Shown here: positions 6,851 through 43,790 of the stretch, one piece after another
How positions within the stretch are numbered: position 1 is the stretch's first letter
How the letters are laid out: every line of letters starts with the position of its first letter
Assembly (NCBI RefSeq): GCF_001536285.1
Contig: NZ_FAOZ01000002.1
Coordinates: forward strand, 62,001-126,000
Length of the DNA: 64,000 nt
Direction of reading: 5' to 3'
Source of the DNA: Parafrankia irregularis
Lineage (GTDB): Bacteria > Actinomycetota > Actinomycetes > Frankiales > Frankiaceae
Translations under genes and position numbers: made by a program
Notes under the pieces: generated by a model
The model's input: only the letters and a program-made list of their open reading frames with translations
What the model was told of the DNA's origin: nothing
Databases searched by the model: none

Positions 6851-7584
6851 GCGAGCACGGCCAGGACGCGGCGGTTGTGCTCCGCCTCGTCAGGCAGTGA
6901 GAGCCGCAGGAACACGTTGCGTACGTGTGTCTCCACGGTCCGCGTCGTGAGCTGGAGCTCGGTGGCGATCGCGCTGTTCGACCGGCCCTGCGCCATCAGC
7001 GCGAGGACCTCCCGCTCCCGCGCGCTGAGCGCGGCCAGCTCGTCGCGCCGCGCCCCGCCACGCTGGCCGGCGAGCAGCGGGACCACCTCCGGGTCGAACG
7101 CACAGCCGTCGGAGGCCACCCGGCGGATCGCGCTGAGGAAATCGGGCCCGGTGACCCGGTCCTTGAGCAGGTAGCCGACGCCGCGGGCGGACTGCCCGAC
7201 CAGCTCGTCGAGATGCGTGACCTCAAGATGCTGGGACAGCAGCAGCACTCCCGTCCCGGGGTGCCGCCGACGTAGCCGGACGGCCGCGCGCAGACCCTCC
7301 AGATGGTGGCCGGGCGGCATCCTGATGTCGACGACCGCGAGGTCGGGGCGGTGTCGTTCGACCGCGTCGAGCAGTCCGTCCGCGTCCGCGGCCTGGCCGA
7401 CGATCACGCATCCGTCTCGTTCCAGCAGGTCGGCGAGAGCCGTCCGGAACAGCTCCGCGTCGTCGGCGAGCACGACCCGAGGCCCCGACGAGGAAGATCG
7501 TCCGGGCTGGTTCGTGGCGGGCTGGTCCGTCGCAGGATGGTGAGCGGGAGCAGGCTGGTCAGCTGGGGTGATGGCTGGGGTCAA
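6736..7584 (-). CDS. NarL/LuxR-type response regulator
   Basis: 282 residues. After a Pro/Ala/Thr-rich N-terminal leader, the receiver begins at RVVLADDAE (Asp41/42); the phospho-acceptor is Asp86 in VVDIRMPP and the Lys is in YLLKDR. The LuxR helix-turn-helix is LSAREREVLALMAQGRSNSA with TTRTVETHVRNVF. It should bind DNA as a dimer after phosphorylation. The ATG at 7584 overlaps the histidine kinase stop (ATGA), so they are coupled. The C-terminal 35 residues after the HTH are low complexity and encoded antisense to the CheY-like gene, so the true functional end may be shorter. Regulon unknown. Confidence 0.92.
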   Translation of the reverse strand: MTPAITPADQPAPAHHPATDQPATNQPGRSSSSGPRVVLADDAELFRTALADLLERDGCVIVGQAADADGLLDAVERHRPDLAVVDIRMPPGHHLEGLRAAVRLRRRHPGTGVLLLSQHLEVTHLDELVGQSARGVGYLLKDRVTGPDFLSAIRRVASDGCAFDPEVVPLLAGQRGGARRDELAALSAREREVLALMAQGRSNSAIATELQLTTRTVETHVRNVFLRLSLPDEAEHNRRVLAVLAYLRSAPRARATTSASASADSVDLGRKPAADDWSTASP

Positions 7585-9656
7585 GGCATCTCCAGGGGCA
7601 GGTTGGCGTGGACGGATGTGCCGTCGCCGGGGGAGCTCCGCACGACCAGCCGGCCCTCGATCGCGGCGACCCGGTCGCGCAGCCCGAGCAGTCCGGTCCC
7701 ACCGGCCAGGTCCGCGCCGCCGACGCCGTCATCGGCAACGGTGACGACCAGCCGGTTCGCGGACACCCGCACACCGACGTGGACCCGAGTGGCGTGGGCG
7801 TGCTTCGTGGCGTTTGTGACCGCCTCGGCCGCCACGAAATAGGCGGTCGCGGCCACCTGGTCCGGCAGCGGAGGAAGCGCCGGGCCGTCGATGACGTCGA
7901 CCGGGTACGCGGACCGGGCCGCGAGCGCCCGCAGCGCGGGCATCAGGCCCGCCTCGGTGAGCACCGCCGGGTGGATGCCGCGGGCCAGTTCCCGAAGCTC
8001 CGCCACCGAGGCCTCCAGCCCGTCGGCGGCCCGCCGCAGCAGGACCCCCAGCTCCGGATCGGACGGATCGGGGCCGAGCCGGTCCCGTGCCAGCCGCAGG
8101 ATCAGCGCGGTCGTGACCAGCTGCTGCTGGGCTCCGTCATGCAGGTCGCGTTCGATCCTGCGGCGCTGCTCGTCGGCCGCCGTGACGATGCGGGCCCGGG
8201 AGGCCCGAGCCTCCGTGAGCTGCGCCCGCACCTCCGCGGCGAGCCGCTGGTTGTCCAGCTCCAGCGCGGCGGCCGCGATGGTGGCTTCCAGGACGTGCCG
8301 GTCGGCACGCAGCGCCGGATCATGCAGCAGTACCGCGACCACCCGCGGACCGCGCAGGACCGGTGTGACCGCGTCCTGCGGCCGGGGGATGACCGGGCGC
8401 CCCGCGGCGTCCACATAGAGCTCGGAGGCGTCGCGGTCGTCTGTGTCGTCCGGGTGGGGGTAGGCGATCCGCAGTGTCGGATCGCCGAGCGCGTGGGCCA
8501 GCAGGTCGCGCAGCTCCGCCGGATCCGCCCGCGGCAGCCGGAGCAGTAGGCCACCTACGACGGTGCGGCCGAGCCGGATCCGTAACGCGCCGGCGAGGAA
8601 GGCCAGCGGCAGACCCAACGTCGCCAGGTGGGCGATCTCGTTGACCAGCTCGGCGCTCTCACCGGGCAGCCCCGGCTGTGACAGCGACGCGGCGACTCCC
8701 GTGATCCCGACGCCGTACACCGGCGCCAGCACGCGGCGGGCCGGTGGCGTCGCGACGAACCACCGGCGAATCAGCAGCCCGCCCACGGCGACGGCGAAGC
8801 CGACCTGCGCGCCGTTGATCAGATTCTCCTGCAGCCGGGTCAGGTCGGCGACCAGCACCAGGTTCGGTGTTATCGAGCTGTAGAACGGGACGCCGAGCGG
8901 CACGAGGAGCAACACCGTCGCGTACACGGCACCGGTCACCGCCCGCTCGGCCCGCCCATGCAGACGTCCGTCGGGAAAGGCGAGCAGCAGGTGCACCAGG
9001 CTCGCCGAGGCCACCGTCCGGCAGAACAACCCGATGGTGTGCGGGACGGGATTGTTCGAGACCTGCAGGTCCTCGGCGAACCAGGCGATACCGACCATCA
9101 CCATCAGCAGGCCGAGCCGGCCGGGCCGGCGCAGGTGCGCGATGGACCCGGTGAGCAGATAAAGGCCGCCGACGACACCGGAGAAGAAGGTGGTGGTCGT
9201 GTCCGGGTCCCGGCCGCCGTCGGACACCCAGAGCGCCGTGGCGCCGAAGAGCGCTCCCACCACTGCCAGTGCCGGTACCCCAACCCCGCCACCATCACGC
9301 CGGCTTTTGTCGGGATCTTGGGAAATGCGCTGGAGGCGCCCTCGAAAGCGCCTGTCACGGCCTCCGGCCGGATACTTTGCGGGCGAGGATCGGGCAGCTT
9401 CCGTCCGGGTGGCGACGTCGCTCCCGGCAGTGGCGGAACCTGCCTGCGCCTCTCCTTTCTGTGCTGCCGGTACTGCCGCTTCCTCTGTTTGCGCTGTGCC
9501 TGCTCCCACGGCCGCGACCCGCGGGGTGGTATGCCCCCGGGCCTGATCGTGTCGGCCCCCGTTCCCCACCCCTGAGCCTTCCCCCGACTCACCGGACCGA
9601 TCAGGACGCCAATCATTATTCGCGAGACGGTGACTCCGAACAAGGGGGCCGCTCAC
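7581..9656 (-). CDS. Sensor histidine kinase, HisKA_3 type
   Basis: Up to 691 residues from GTG 9656; the first ~115 residues are polar and Ala/Gly-rich, so a later start just before GVPALAVV is possible. About eight hydrophobic segments form the membrane part, followed by a GAF-like linker region with NQRLAAEVRAQL coiled coil. The dimerisation/phosphoacceptor motif is ERDLHDGAQQQL with His near 506. The ATPase has EAVTNATKHAHA (N box), VADDGVGGAD and GTGLLGLRDRVAAIEGRL. It pairs with the downstream regulator through a 4-bp overlap. The upstream 379 bp contains a conserved hairpin element at 9750-9818. The ligand is unknown. Confidence 0.9.
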   Translation of the reverse strand: MSGPLVRSHRLANNDWRPDRSGESGEGSGVGNGGRHDQARGHTTPRVAAVGAGTAQTEEAAVPAAQKGEAQAGSATAGSDVATRTEAARSSPAKYPAGGRDRRFRGRLQRISQDPDKSRRDGGGVGVPALAVVGALFGATALWVSDGGRDPDTTTTFFSGVVGGLYLLTGSIAHLRRPGRLGLLMVMVGIAWFAEDLQVSNNPVPHTIGLFCRTVASASLVHLLLAFPDGRLHGRAERAVTGAVYATVLLLVPLGVPFYSSITPNLVLVADLTRLQENLINGAQVGFAVAVGGLLIRRWFVATPPARRVLAPVYGVGITGVAASLSQPGLPGESAELVNEIAHLATLGLPLAFLAGALRIRLGRTVVGGLLLRLPRADPAELRDLLAHALGDPTLRIAYPHPDDTDDRDASELYVDAAGRPVIPRPQDAVTPVLRGPRVVAVLLHDPALRADRHVLEATIAAAALELDNQRLAAEVRAQLTEARASRARIVTAADEQRRRIERDLHDGAQQQLVTTALILRLARDRLGPDPSDPELGVLLRRAADGLEASVAELRELARGIHPAVLTEAGLMPALRALAARSAYPVDVIDGPALPPLPDQVAATAYFVAAEAVTNATKHAHATRVHVGVRVSANRLVVTVADDGVGGADLAGGTGLLGLRDRVAAIEGRLVVRSSPGDGTSVHANLPLEMP

Positions 9657-9749
9657 TCCGGCCGCACATCGCGGAGCTCGGTAATGGAGACTCGCCCGGC
9701 CCCATCATACGGAAAGCTGTGCCGTTCACCTCGCCGCGGCCTGGTTCAG

Positions 9750-9818
9750 CGAACCTTTTCCCTCTCACGGTCCACGGGCAGGGAAGCCGCAGACCGAGCC
9801 GACGATGGAAAAGGTTCG
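9750..9818. repeat. Hairpin element family 1, copy A
   Basis: A perfect 12-bp inverted repeat, cgaaccttttcc (9750-9761) and its complement (9807-9818), encloses a 45-bp loop. The loop and arms match a second element at 42431-42498. Shared core words include gtccacgg, cagggaa and ccgcag. Arm differences between copies (GAACC/GGTTC here, GATCC/GGATC there) keep the pairing. It lies in the 379-bp gap between the AraC-type gene end and the histidine kinase start, oriented with both on the minus strand. The rest of this gap shows no convincing gene. It could be a structured RNA, attenuator or small palindromic mobile repeat. Confidence 0.75.
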
Positions 9819-10035
9819 GTCTTCATCGGGTATCCGGGCGACCGTGGATTCTTCCTCGTCCGGGTGTCGGCGAGCGTGATTCCCGGCGTTTCCGGCCGGT
9901 CGACGGGAAGGCCCGGAACGAGGAGAACTTCGGCGGCTCCGCATACCCGGCGGCCCTCGATCTGATGGCCGGGCGACGATCACAGTCCCCGCACTCGGCG
10001 AGACGGGTGGGCCGCCGTTCACACGGCGGCGGACG

Positions 10036-10992
10036 TCAGGCGCGGAAGGTTCTGCGGTAGGCGTTCGGTGACACCGCGATCGCCTCCCGCAGATGCTGGC
10101 GCAGGGAGGTGGCGGTGCCGAAGCCCGCGCGCTCCGCGATGCGGTCGACTGGCAGGTCGGTGTTCTCCAGAAGATGCCTGGCAAGGTCGATCCGCTGCCC
10201 GGTGAGCCACTGCCCTGGGCTCTGCCCGACCTCGGCACGGAAGCGGCGGGTGAACGTCCGCCGGCTCATCCCCGCGTGCGCGGCAAGCTCGTCGAGCCCC
10301 AGTGCCTGGTCGAGCCGATCGAGGGCCCAGCCGCGGGTCGGCGCCGTCCCGTTGTCCGCGGTGCGTGGGACGGGGCGTTCGATGTACTGGGCCTGGCCGC
10401 CGTCCCGCCAGGGCGGAACCACGCTGTTGCGGGCCACCCGGTTGGCGACGCCGCTGCCATGGTCGCGGCGGACGATGTGGAGACAGAGGTCGACTGCCGC
10501 GGCCGCACCCGCGGAGGTGAGGATGCGCCCCGTGTCGACGAAGAGGACGCCAGGGTCGACGTCGATGGCTGGGTAGCAGCGCCGGAGGTGCTCCGCATGC
10601 CGCCAGTGGGTGGTGGCCCGCAGACCGTCCAGCAGGCCGCCGGCGGCGAGGACGTACGACGCCAGGCAGAGCGAGACCAGCCGGGCGTCGGGGCGAACCT
10701 GGCCGAGCGCGTTCGCCAGATCGGCGGGCAGGAGATCGCGGCCGGTGATCCTGGTCATCTCCTCGGCGGGAGGGATGACGACGGTGTCGGCGGTTGACAG
10801 CGCCGCTGCGCCACCTGTGACGGTGACGGAGAAATCGGCGGCCGTCCTCACCGGGCCGCCACTCACCGTGCAGGTGGTCACCCGGTACAGCGGCCGGCCG
10901 GCGTCGTCGCAGGCATTGCCGAAGATCTTGGACGGCGTGCTGAGCTCGAACGGCATCACCCCGTCCGTCGCGAGGACGGCAACCTGATGCAT
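10036..10992 (-). CDS. GlxA-type transcriptional regulator (DJ-1/PfpI + AraC HTH)
   Basis: 318 residues from ATG 10992 (MHQVAVLATDG). The N-terminal half (about 1-180) is a DJ-1/PfpI-like domain: AVLATDGVMPFELSTP, DTVVIPPAEE and SLCLASYVLAAGGLLDG, where the Cys sits at the nucleophile elbow. The C-terminal ~100 residues form a double AraC HTH: LGLDELAAHAGMSRRTFTRR, then VGQSPGQWLTGQRI and DRIAERAGFGTATSLRQH. Such proteins usually act as activators of adjacent metabolic genes. It is divergent from the oxidoreductase gene with a 70-bp shared promoter region, so that gene is a likely target. Confidence 0.93.
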   Translation of the reverse strand: MHQVAVLATDGVMPFELSTPSKIFGNACDDAGRPLYRVTTCTVSGGPVRTAADFSVTVTGGAAALSTADTVVIPPAEEMTRITGRDLLPADLANALGQVRPDARLVSLCLASYVLAAGGLLDGLRATTHWRHAEHLRRCYPAIDVDPGVLFVDTGRILTSAGAAAAVDLCLHIVRRDHGSGVANRVARNSVVPPWRDGGQAQYIERPVPRTADNGTAPTRGWALDRLDQALGLDELAAHAGMSRRTFTRRFRAEVGQSPGQWLTGQRIDLARHLLENTDLPVDRIAERAGFGTATSLRQHLREAIAVSPNAYRRTFRA

Positions 10993-40818: not shown

Positions 40819-42285
40819 ATGGCCACCGAACGGAACCGCCTCACCTGGACCTTCGTCGTCACCTGCATCGCCGCCTTCATGACCTCCCTGGACAACCTGG
40901 TGGTCACGATGGCGCTCCCGTCGATCCGCGAGCACCTCCACGCCAGCCTGGCCGAGCTGGAATGGACCGTTAACGCCTACACCCTCAGCTTCGCCGTCCT
41001 CCTGCTGCCCGCGGCGGCGCTGGGGGACAGGCTCGGCCGGCGCCGGGTCTTCGCTGCCGGTTTGGCGATCTTCACGGTGGCCAGTGCCGCCGCCGCGCTG
41101 GCGCCGGGCGTCAGCACGCTCATCGCCGCCCGAGCGGTGCAGGGCGTCGGTGGGGCGATCGTGCTGCCGCTGTCGATGACCCTGCTGTCGGCCGCGGTCC
41201 CGGCGGAGCGCCGCGGCGCCGCACTGGGCATCTGGGGCGCGGTCTCCGGTCTGGCCATCGCACTCGGGCCGCTGGTCGGCGGGGCCATCACGCAGGGGGC
41301 GGCCTGGCAGTGGATCTTCTGGGTGAACGTCCCGCTGGGCCTCGCTGTGATCCCCCTGGCTTTCACCCGCCTCACCGAGAGCCGTGAGCCGTCCAGCCGG
41401 CTGGACGTCACGGGAACCGTCCTGGTCAGCCTGGGCCTGTTCGGGGTGGTCCTCGGTGTGGTCCGTGGGCAGGACCACGGCTGGACGAGCGCCGGGGTGC
41501 TCAGTGCACTGATCGCCGGCGTGGTCGGACTGGTCGCGTTCGTTGCCTGGGAGCTGCGGTCCGAGCGGCGCGGCGGCGCGCCGATGCTGCCGGTGAGCCT
41601 GTTCCGCCGCCGCGGGTTCGCCGCGGTCAACGCGGTCGCGGTGCTGTTCTCCTTCGGGATGTTCGGCTCGATCTTCCTGATCTCCCAGTACCTGCAGAAC
41701 GTCATGGGCTACTCACCGCTGGGCGCAGGTCTGCGCACCCTGCCCTGGACGGTGATGCCGCTGATCGTCGCGCCGATCGCCGGCCCGCTGTCCGACCGGA
41801 TCGGCGGGCGCCCGCTGATGGTCACCGGCCTGGCCATGATGACCGGCGGGCTGCTGTGGCTGCGCGCCGATCTGGCCCCCGACACGTCGTTCCTGACCCT
41901 TGTCCCCGCCTTCATCGTCTCCGGCGTCGGCATGGCCCTGTTCTTCGTCCCGGTCGCGAACGTGGTCATGGGGTCGGTTCCGACCGAGTTCGAGGGTGTG
42001 GCCTCCGGGGTCAACAACGCTTTCCGTGAGGTCGGCGGCGTCTTCGGTATCGCGGTCCTCGCCTCGGTGTTCGCCGCGGCCGGTGGCTACGCCAGCGCCG
42101 CCGACTTCACCGACGGCATCCGCGTCGCCCTGGTCGTCGGCGCGGTCGCGACCGGCGTCGGAACGCTCGGCTCCCTGCTCGTCCCCCGCCACCGGACGTC
42201 CCCCGCCGACGAGCTCACCGACCGGACCGACATCCGCACCGACGCACCGGCCCGCAGCCTCGGCTACGAGCCCGCCGGTACCTGA
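40819..42285 (+). CDS. MFS drug exporter, DHA2 (EmrB/QacA) type
   Basis: 488 residues from ATG 40819 with ggaggg 11 bp upstream. Fourteen hydrophobic segments. Motifs: LDNLVVTMALPSIREHL (motif D1 of DHA2), LLPAAALGDRLGRRRVF (motif A), ARAVQGVGGAIVLPLSMTLL (motif C-like region), GPLVGGAITQGAAWQWIFWVN. Exports drugs or secondary metabolites in exchange for protons. Placed directly after its likely TetR repressor. Confidence 0.95.
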   Translation: MATERNRLTWTFVVTCIAAFMTSLDNLVVTMALPSIREHLHASLAELEWTVNAYTLSFAVLLLPAAALGDRLGRRRVFAAGLAIFTVASAAAALAPGVSTLIAARAVQGVGGAIVLPLSMTLLSAAVPAERRGAALGIWGAVSGLAIALGPLVGGAITQGAAWQWIFWVNVPLGLAVIPLAFTRLTESREPSSRLDVTGTVLVSLGLFGVVLGVVRGQDHGWTSAGVLSALIAGVVGLVAFVAWELRSERRGGAPMLPVSLFRRRGFAAVNAVAVLFSFGMFGSIFLISQYLQNVMGYSPLGAGLRTLPWTVMPLIVAPIAGPLSDRIGGRPLMVTGLAMMTGGLLWLRADLAPDTSFLTLVPAFIVSGVGMALFFVPVANVVMGSVPTEFEGVASGVNNAFREVGGVFGIAVLASVFAAAGGYASAADFTDGIRVALVVGAVATGVGTLGSLLVPRHRTSPADELTDRTDIRTDAPARSLGYEPAGT

Positions 42286-42430
42286 CGGCTCCGCCGCCTT
42301 CCCGCAGGGGCGGATCCGGTCAGATTGCGAATCCCCGCCACGCCCACGCCCACGCCAATAGTCGGGACGCCGGCCGCCCACGCTGCGGAATATCACCCGC
42401 AGCCCGGGCGGCCGGCCCCTGACTTTCAGT

Positions 42431-42498
42431 GATCCTTCTCCGTATCACCGTCCACGGTCAGGGAAACCGCAGGTCCGGGTCGATGACGGAAAAGGATC
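42431..42498. repeat. Hairpin element family 1, copy B
   Basis: Arms gatccttctccgt (42431-42443) and acggaaaaggatc (42486-42498) pair with a single non-Watson-Crick position that would be G-U on the minus strand. The loop shares gtccacgg, cagggaa and ccgcag with copy A at 9750-9818. It begins 2 bp after the haloperoxidase-type stop codon (minus strand), where a terminator would lie. The rest of the 215-bp gap between 42285 and 42501 is non-coding. Confidence 0.75.
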
Positions 42499-42500
42499 CG

Positions 42501-43790
42501 TTACAGCCGGGGGCGGAAATAGTTTCTGACCGCGTAGGCGGTGGTCTTCGCACCGATCTTCGCACCCTCGATGTCAGCCGTCCGGGTGTGGATTCCACCC
42601 CAGATACGGGCCTCGATCACCTCGGCGATGGCCTGCGAGAAGCTCCGGAAATACCGGGTGGTGCCCGAGGCCTCGCTGTAGGCGCTGAAGGTCACGTCGT
42701 CCCGGCCGAAGAAGTACGCCAACGCCGACATGCTCGCCGCCGTGAAGCAGGTGTGCCCCGAGGTGAAATCGGGGTGCGGCGGCGTCACGAGCAGCGGCAT
42801 CCAGTTCGGGTCGGCCGCGGTGGCCGGGTTGCCGTCGGTGTCCGCGAGCTGGATCGCGGTCACCGGCCGCCAGAACATCCAGGCCGCCTTCTCGTTGTAG
42901 CAGGCGGTGGTCGCGTCGGCCTCGGAGATGTCCACCATGGCGAACATCCGCGCCGTCTGCAGGACATTCAGGTGCTGGCCGGTGGCCAGCTGCCGCTTGA
43001 TCTCCCACTCGCCCAGGTGACGGTCATGCCACCAGATCGCGGCCTGCGTCTGGTCGAGGGTGCGGGTGGTGCTGTTGACCGCGCCGATCTCCTTGACCTC
43101 GTTGAAGTCGCGGGCGTACTGGGCGGAGGTCAGCGCGGGCGGGCCCGCGGTGCGGAACATCGACGTACTCGGCAGGAGGAACGGCTTGAGCTTCGCCACC
43201 CACGCCGTGTCGGAGGCGTAGGTGGGCGGGGTCGGCCGCCACTGGCCGGGCTCGGTTCCCACCGGCCAGGCCGGGTCACCGAACGCCCCGTCATCCTGGC
43301 GCGCCCGGATCATCGCGTCGGCGGTCTGGCCGCCCACCGAGACCCCGCCGCGCTTCGCGGCGGTACTGCCCGGGACGGTCGCCATCCACTCGTCGTACTG
43401 TGCCTGCAGACGCGCCTGCTGAGCGGGGAAAAGCGAGCTGAGAACCTGGAAGGCCGCGGTGCCGACCGCCGCGTCCACCGATTCGCGGCCGTTGGTGCGC
43501 GGGGCGCTGAGATAGGGCTGGTAAGGGCGCCCGGAGATGGCGTTCACCGCGTCGTAGATCGCCCCGTGCACCATCGCGAAGCTGCGCGCCTGCACCTGCG
43601 GCTGCTGGCCGGCGACATCCCAGATCGCGGTCTGCGCGTTACGGTCCCAGACGATGACGGCATTTGGCGAGGTGTTCGCGACCGTGCCCGGTGCGGGCGA
43701 GGCACCGGCCACGGCCGGCACGCCGGCGGCAAGAAAAACGGCGACGACCGTGCACATTAGTTTTCGGCGAAACCGACCCGAGCGCACCAC
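42501..43790 (-). CDS. Secreted vanadium haloperoxidase-type (PAP2) enzyme
   Basis: 429 residues from GTG 43790. Signal peptide: LMCTVVAVFLAAGVPAVAG, cleaved near GASPA. The vanadate-binding set is seen in order: EKAAWMFWRPV (Lys and Arg, near 300), PPHPDFTSGHT (Ser-Gly-His, near 343) and RIWGGIHTRTADIEG (Arg and His, near 400). This is the bacterial VCPO/PAP2 pattern with the FTSGHT variant. It would oxidise halide with peroxide or dephosphorylate lipids; secreted members in actinomycetes are usually of unknown role. Alone on the strand, followed by a conserved hairpin. Confidence 0.92.
   Translation of the reverse strand: MVRSGRFRRKLMCTVVAVFLAAGVPAVAGASPAPGTVANTSPNAVIVWDRNAQTAIWDVAGQQPQVQARSFAMVHGAIYDAVNAISGRPYQPYLSAPRTNGRESVDAAVGTAAFQVLSSLFPAQQARLQAQYDEWMATVPGSTAAKRGGVSVGGQTADAMIRARQDDGAFGDPAWPVGTEPGQWRPTPPTYASDTAWVAKLKPFLLPSTSMFRTAGPPALTSAQYARDFNEVKEIGAVNSTTRTLDQTQAAIWWHDRHLGEWEIKRQLATGQHLNVLQTARMFAMVDISEADATTACYNEKAAWMFWRPVTAIQLADTDGNPATAADPNWMPLLVTPPHPDFTSGHTCFTAASMSALAYFFGRDDVTFSAYSEASGTTRYFRSFSQAIAEVIEARIWGGIHTRTADIEGAKIGAKTTAYAVRNYFRPRL

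Follow-up and report, generated by a model that had tools for sequence, protein, structure and literature searches.

The DNA analysed here (the window) is a 64,000-nucleotide stretch of the Parafrankia irregularis genome (NCBI RefSeq assembly GCF_001536285.1, contig NZ_FAOZ01000002.1, positions 62,001 to 126,000 of the forward strand), and two hairpins of 67-68 bp with a common stem and loop were found in it where an initial annotation of the sequence had placed them. The exact bounds of copy 1 were 9751-9817 (67 bp) and those of copy 2 were 42431-42498 (68 bp), in surroundings of 68-73% GC. Copy 1 lies 215 bp past a minus-strand gene for an AraC/DJ-1-type regulator (stop at 10036) and upstream of a minus-strand histidine kinase gene (ORF 7581-9656). 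Copy 2 lies between two convergent genes, for an MFS transporter on the plus strand (40819-42285) and for a PAP2-superfamily protein on the minus strand (42501-43790), the latter with a match to a vanadium chloroperoxidase N-terminal domain that fell below the cut-off of that model. The element abuts the stop codon of the PAP2-superfamily gene, the final base of which is also the final base of the CGT triplet at the right of copy 2. Each copy is located 3' of a minus-strand gene, in agreement with the initial annotation, and the arm variants from which compensatory change had been proposed (GAACC/GGTTC as opposed to GATCC/GGATC) are present in the sequence. The arms of copy 1, at 9750-9764 and 9804-9818, were 93% complementary in the output of a repeat finder; those of copy 2 were absent from this output, which listed a neighbouring GC-rich repeat instead. 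This inverted repeat (42369-42416; 20-nt arms, 8-nt loop) lies between the 3' end of the MFS transporter gene and copy 2, and is possibly the terminator of that gene. Features of both elements are listed in Table 1.

Table 1. Parts of the two window copies and the evidence by which each was placed (positions in the window).
Feature	Sequence	Position	Strand	Basis
Copy 1, left target-site duplication copy	AGC	9748..9750		Direct reading; empty site in EUN1f; family-wide ANT
Copy 1, left terminal inverted repeat	GAACCTTTTCCCTC (family consensus GAGCCTTTTCCATC)	9751..9764	+	Reading; alignment; repeat finder
Copy 1, interior	39 nt	9765..9803	+	Kind common to sampled copies of own and sister genome
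Copy 1, right terminal inverted repeat	GATGGAAAAGGTTC	9804..9817	+	Reading; repeat finder
Copy 1, right target-site duplication copy	GGT	9818..9820		Reading; empty-site comparison
Copy 2, left target-site duplication copy	AGT	42428..42430		Reading; comparison with sister
Copy 2, left terminal inverted repeat	GATCCTTCTCCGTA	42431..42444	+	Reading; alignment
Copy 2, interior	40 nt	42445..42484	+	Reading; alignment
Copy 2, right terminal inverted repeat	GACGGAAAAGGATC	42485..42498	+	Reading; alignment
Copy 2, right target-site duplication copy	CGT	42499..42501		Reading; comparison with sister; gene map

The many further copies expected of an RNA or MITE family were found in the own genome (G000) and in one relative, the sister genome (G001), which is apparently that of Parafrankia sp. 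EUN1f. As a DNA query, copy 1 matched 40 places in the own genome. A covariance model of 76 positions, built from 36 copies and applied at E<=0.001 with 150 candidates scored per genome, returned 121 rows in the own genome, which correspond to 115 distinct places (both window copies included) after removal of 6 two-strand duplicates, and 140 rows or 134 distinct places in G001. A 15-base terminal pattern, with at most one mismatch, occurred 69 times in the own genome and 123 times in G001 as opposed to 0 times for a reversed-pattern control. Because of the 115 places found by the model and the 69 and 123 pattern matches against none, the likeness of the copies is far above chance. Median element length was 68 bp in both MITE-rich genomes, and random pairs of copies from the own genome had a median identity of 72%. 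Few copies were inside ORFs predicted by a GC3 caller (9/98 in G000, 5/97 in G001), a crude method that left one side unassigned for 55/98 and 46/97 copies and from which only the inside-ORF counts were used. Comparisons between copies were based on samples of 99 of the 115 places in G000 and 99 of the 134 in G001, with 98 and 97 of these, respectively, in the count of gene context.

The four other congeners (G002-G005) gave no covariance-model match under filters stricter than those of the own-genome search. Altogether, the model matched 17 of 58 relatives, namely G000, G001, seven of the eight genomes of a neighbouring genus (g6) and eight others, the latter with weak single matches (E 1.6e-4 to 6.5e-4), of which seven were rejected as family members since by eye they were unlike the family. 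The remaining one (L092 in G030, from another genus) resembled a worn element whose ends are similar and whose interior differs. When GTDB contigs were scanned with a 22-base pattern, 29 loci were identified, of which 28 belonged to Parafrankia sp. EUN1f and the other to Sphingorhabdus.

Other arrangements of the repeat were also noted. Tandem arrays of 2-3 elements with one ANT triplet common to both elements at the junction (L031:597-814, which is G000:C5:331854-332071, as well as L015 and L279) suggest that an element had been inserted into another's target duplication. Solo terminal repeats, followed by short family-like or unrelated sequence, were seen in G000 at C1:39213, C5:439976, C14:65440 and six other places (L175-L183). 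These nine, chosen by eye as missing from the covariance-model list, had no second repeat within 3 kb at <=3 mismatches and are probably truncated elements.

The alignment of copies defined a family consensus of C-ANT-GAGCCTTTTCCATC-(~40 nt)-GATGGAAAAGGCTC-ANT-G. Both 14-bp terminal inverted repeats were within 5 mismatches of GAGCCTTTTCCATC in 183 of the 198 sampled copies; the other 15 were dropped from the duplication counts by this test of register. When the copies were first aligned, the position within the left CA_TG and its counterpart on the right held G/G in 15 copies, A/A in 5, C/C in 5 and T/T in 2 (n=37), and since the same letter rather than its complement appeared on both sides, the ANT triplets form a direct repeat, that is, a target-site duplication. 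Among non-tandem, well-registered copies, the middle base of ANT was identical left and right in 52 of the 75 from the own genome and 54 of the 79 from G001, whereas agreement in 5000 permutations averaged 22.5 and 23.5 copies and peaked at 35 and 37. At control positions farther out, the number of agreeing copies ranged from 16 to 28 (n=75) and from 16 to 31 (n=79). Tandem copies were left out of this main test, which was computed with them as well. All three bases agreed in 20/75 and 24/79 copies as opposed to 7.0 and 8.4 after permutation; the duplication is imperfect in the remaining copies and worn beside both window elements (AGC/GGT for copy 1, AGT/CGT for copy 2).

Comparison with EUN1f provided a clean empty site for copy 1. 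Thus, the own genome reads ...GCGGCCTGGTTC-AGC-element-GGT-CTTCATCG... where EUN1f, with no element, reads ...GCGGCCTGGTTC-CGT-CTTCATCG..., and the two sequences differ by the element together with a single 3-bp duplication. Also absent from EUN1f were copy 2 and the copy at G000:C14:148040, although the junctions had drifted at these two of the three absence sites, which are inexact at the base level, and the left flank of copy 2 was placed ambiguously by MAFFT. The other three copies in the same 15-kb stretch as G000:C14:148040 were common to G000 and G001. Among the 99 + 99 sampled copies, 79 pairs matched in both flanks, from which 64 one-to-one insertions common to the two genomes were obtained after removal of tandem cross-pairs (median identity between the paired elements, 91%); 10 of the 64 were dropped for register, leaving 54.

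A candidate for the source of transposase was found among the insertion sequences (IS) of other Frankiaceae. In the neighbouring genus, one locus (L307) has an exact copy of the terminal repeat beside an AAT triplet, followed by a transposase ORF, which matched DDE_Tnp_4 at 91.5 bits (cut-off 24.8) and HTH_Tnp_4 at 62.7 bits (cut-off 27); no right end was found at this locus. A second transposase (L342) exceeded the same cut-offs, at 101.8 and 63.4 bits, respectively. In the congener G002, GAGCCTTTTCCATC was present exactly at three left IS ends (L330, L353 and L354), and the same 14 bp was present exactly at a right IS end beside a transposase C-terminus (L352). The left and right ends in G002 are on separate contigs, and no single contig with a full-length IS bearing both exact repeats was seen. 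Triplets beside the G002 ends were ATT, ACC and CAG and, at the right end read inward, GGT, with one of the four conforming to ANT. Six close relatives with both ends in place, from other Frankiaceae genomes, shared 71-74% protein identity and had similar ends; five were of 968-1003 bp and one of 688 bp. Their duplications were AAT/AAT in three cases, ACT/ACT in one, CGT/AGT in one and ACT/ACA in the 688-bp copy, so that an identical ANT duplication is kept in four of six. PMC4482050 describes duplications of ANT targets as being in keeping with bacterial IS5.

The IS5 model of NCBIfam (NF033581) scored 116.3 and 105.8 bits against a cut-off of 140, and because these scores are below the cut-off, assignment to the IS5 type rests on the Pfam domains, the ends and the target. 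A partner IS with HTH_Tnp_4 and DDE_Tnp_4 would probably belong to the ISL2 group of the IS5 family. The IS5-type elements (G002, G013, G016, G025 and G031) resemble the MITE in the 14-bp terminus, which is exact in G002 and L307, as well as, for four of the six two-ended relatives, in the ANT duplication. In contrast, the MITE has no transposase and measures 68 as opposed to approximately 1000 bp, and both of its ends are alike whereas the G013-type IS has two unlike ends (GAGCCTTTTCAATC and GAGCCATTTCAAAG). No derivation of the MITE interior from the partner IS was visible.

Of 35 Frankiaceae genomes, 20 contained relatives of the L307 transposase, and no match was obtained at E<=0.001 in G000 or G001. 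Other transposases in these two genomes, comprising 18 DDE_Tnp_1 loci (PF01609) and one DDE_Tnp_4 locus (PF13359, in G001), were considered as partners and rejected because no repeat pair with <=3 mismatches was found in the sequence around any of them. In G003, another congener, 18 IS5-type transposase matches were noted (e.g., L355-L360), several of them at contig ends; thus, an IS expansion seems to exist in G003 while the MITE was not found there. Because the transposase is without a match in either MITE-rich genome, the copies in these genomes look stranded, and for the same reason mobilisation by an IS5-type transposase is something that we infer. An autonomous partner in the same genome is not a defining requirement for a MITE.

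The features found, namely 14-bp terminal inverted repeats, a 3-bp ANT duplication, more than 100 dispersed copies without a transposase, an empty site and termini shared with an IS, indicate that the element is a new MITE family, ordinary in kind, which an IS5-type transposase probably moved in the past and which is at present stranded in the lineage. We place at about 0.93 the probability of the full reading, i.e., a 67-68 bp MITE that was moved by an IS5-type transposase and is now stranded and drifting in the lineage. According to this reading, an IS5-type IS would have supplied a transposase (HTH_Tnp_4 + DDE_Tnp_4) that bound to each of the two terminal repeats and joined the element to ANT sites cut in a staggered manner. 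Many of the insertions would have taken place before the species split from EUN1f, the transposase would then have been lost from the own lineage, and the copies would since have drifted as unselected DNA. The hairpin would follow from the inverted ends, and covariation between copies may have come from different active source elements, each with two matching ends.

The family could alternatively be a structured non-coding or cis-regulatory RNA with a stem kept by selection on pairing, as the initial annotation had claimed from the arm variants. Single-strand folds of the window copies were in accord with this to the extent that all four were more stable than the shuffle mean, with z values of -3.15 (plus strand) and -4.87 (minus strand) for copy 1 and -2.06 and -4.79 for copy 2, the minus strand being the better one in each case. 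The location of copies mostly outside the ORFs predicted by the crude caller also accords with an RNA, as does an excess of both-side changes between copies (18 cells compared with 7.7 in shuffled alignments, a value not reached in any of 500 shuffles). However, a second measure of covariation gave 5 pairs with both-side change compared with 4.2 (178/500 shuffles), and 16 of the 18 cells fell in three columns. Between-copy covariation peaked at positions 3, 6 and 12 of the repeat, and most columns paired approximately as predicted from composition, for a slight overall excess of Watson-Crick pairs (2112 of 2562 stem positions compared with 2028 expected from column composition). No structure was returned by RNAalifold for the plus-strand alignment, and 9 pairs with a covariation energy of -0.37 were returned for the minus-strand alignment. 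No Rfam family matched at gathering score in the window, and the initial annotation had recognised no named RNA.

Among orthologous copies, covariation was no longer seen. Among 756 stem pairs from 54 copies common to the two species, 114 had changed on one side, and of the pairs changed on both sides, 1 was Watson-Crick in both species and 11 were not, where independence of the two sides would predict 6.1 double changes. Slipped register probably accounts for the surplus of double changes without pairing. Divergence per base was 0.082 in the terminal repeats, 0.083 in the interior and 0.053 in the flanks, which are partly coding; for arms and interior, only pairs of equal length were used (1176/28 = 42 pairs), and the flank rate omits flanks that were more than 30% different. 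Thus, the arms keep pace with the interior in divergence and outpace the flanks, the pattern among orthologs is one of drift and pairing is not being maintained. The claim that base pairing is under selection is therefore unsupported. Wobble-type mismatches, considered as a sign of a transcribed strand, occurred on both strands without clear asymmetry (39 GT and 53 AC, 127 and 162 in a larger set). With the window copies in two different gene arrangements and target duplications and empty sites that point to transposition, an RNA family is very improbable. The arms presumably match within each copy because a transposase must recognise both ends and source elements need ends that match. Of the two possibilities named at the outset, an RNA or a MITE family, the latter stands in view of the many copies in the genome and its relative, and one candidate RNA family is removed; covariation between copies of a repeat is by itself no evidence of RNA function.

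Drift above the flank rate also bears on whether the MITE was later co-opted at particular sites, as a terminator, an RNase III site or a protein-binding site. Uses of this sort have been described or proposed for other prokaryotic MITEs (PMC10969869), and the position of copy 2, directly at a stop codon between convergent genes, would suit such a role. The rate of drift argues against a function of the whole family, although single copies could still serve, and we regard co-option as unlikely.

A palindrome of the REP/RAYT type (IS200/IS605-related), or some other repeat whose spread involves no target duplication, is very improbable. The REP/BIME/RAYT systems resemble the Parafrankia element in their short palindromes, which are mostly outside predicted ORFs and occasionally in tandem arrays, but differ from it in that it has a target duplication and the termini of an IS with a DDE transposase. 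In size as well, 68 bp with a 40-nt interior contrasts with the 20-40 bp given for REPs in PMC3733652. The Correia/NEMIS elements, like the Parafrankia MITE, are short, dispersed and hairpin-forming, with inverted repeats and a target duplication. The ends and target are different, however, and the Correia element is of 204 bp according to PMC10969869, in which MITEs are also described as typically AT-rich, in contrast with the GC-rich window. No paper on a Frankia MITE was found in the open-access literature searched; the words MITE and miniature do not occur in the main text of PMC2770080, nor does Frankia in PMC3733652.

The more than 100 hairpins in each of two Parafrankia genomes are thus accounted for by a single mobile family, for which there is a probable type of partner. 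Stranded copies are good markers, given the many insertions common to both species, and sites that are occupied in one species and empty in the other can date the burst of transposition.

Elements with similar ends in the neighbouring genus mostly differed from those of Parafrankia in the interior rather than in length. The terminal pattern was rare in five g6 genomes (4 to 19 matches). Of 25 g6 elements examined, comprising 15 model matches and 10 of 20 single-repeat loci with an evident second end, 21 were of 67-70 bp, a result to be read with the fact that the 15 came from a 76-position model that favours this length. Nor are the 25 independent, since L302/L316, L095/L082, L084/L098/L099 and L311/L321 are likely orthologs or members of one subfamily. 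The middle target base was the same on both sides in 15 elements and the whole triplet in 6. When compared with the Parafrankia interior, 21 of the 25 g6 interiors scored within 2 standard deviations of shuffled sequence; one interior (L078) was clearly related.

Two further counts were blind to length. In the first, 7 of 9 visible repeat pairs in a list compiled by pattern spanned 68-70 bp and the others 83 and 85 bp. Among the 20 loci taken by one repeat, 8 had a partner with <=3 mismatches within 30-500 bp, at 67, 68, 68, 69, 69, 81, 170 and 402 bp. The chance of a partner with <=4 mismatches in the same range is 0.38 in g6 locus DNA, and single weak partners therefore mean little. These lengths and interiors raise the tentative idea, which we consider doubtful, of a blank cassette, whereby the IS5-type transposase would mobilise any DNA of approximately 67-70 bp with the 14-bp repeat at both ends, whatever the interior. 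If so, size would be fixed by transpososome geometry, and MITEs would have been born repeatedly or had their interiors replaced. A near-constant length with an exchangeable interior would be the one feature of this family to surprise a specialist and, should fixed length and variable interiors hold, an IS5-type transposase would have, in a high-GC actinobacterium, a natural substrate of minimal size.

Another dispersed repeat, measuring up to about 430 bp and, as far as seen, unrelated to the 68-bp element, was noted at L184:7574-8004 of the own genome (G000:C14, approximately 144073-144503). This repeat contains a palindrome around TTTTGGTCGTTGCAACGACCAAAA and had approximately 25-30 partial matches of about 70-88% identity in the sister genome.
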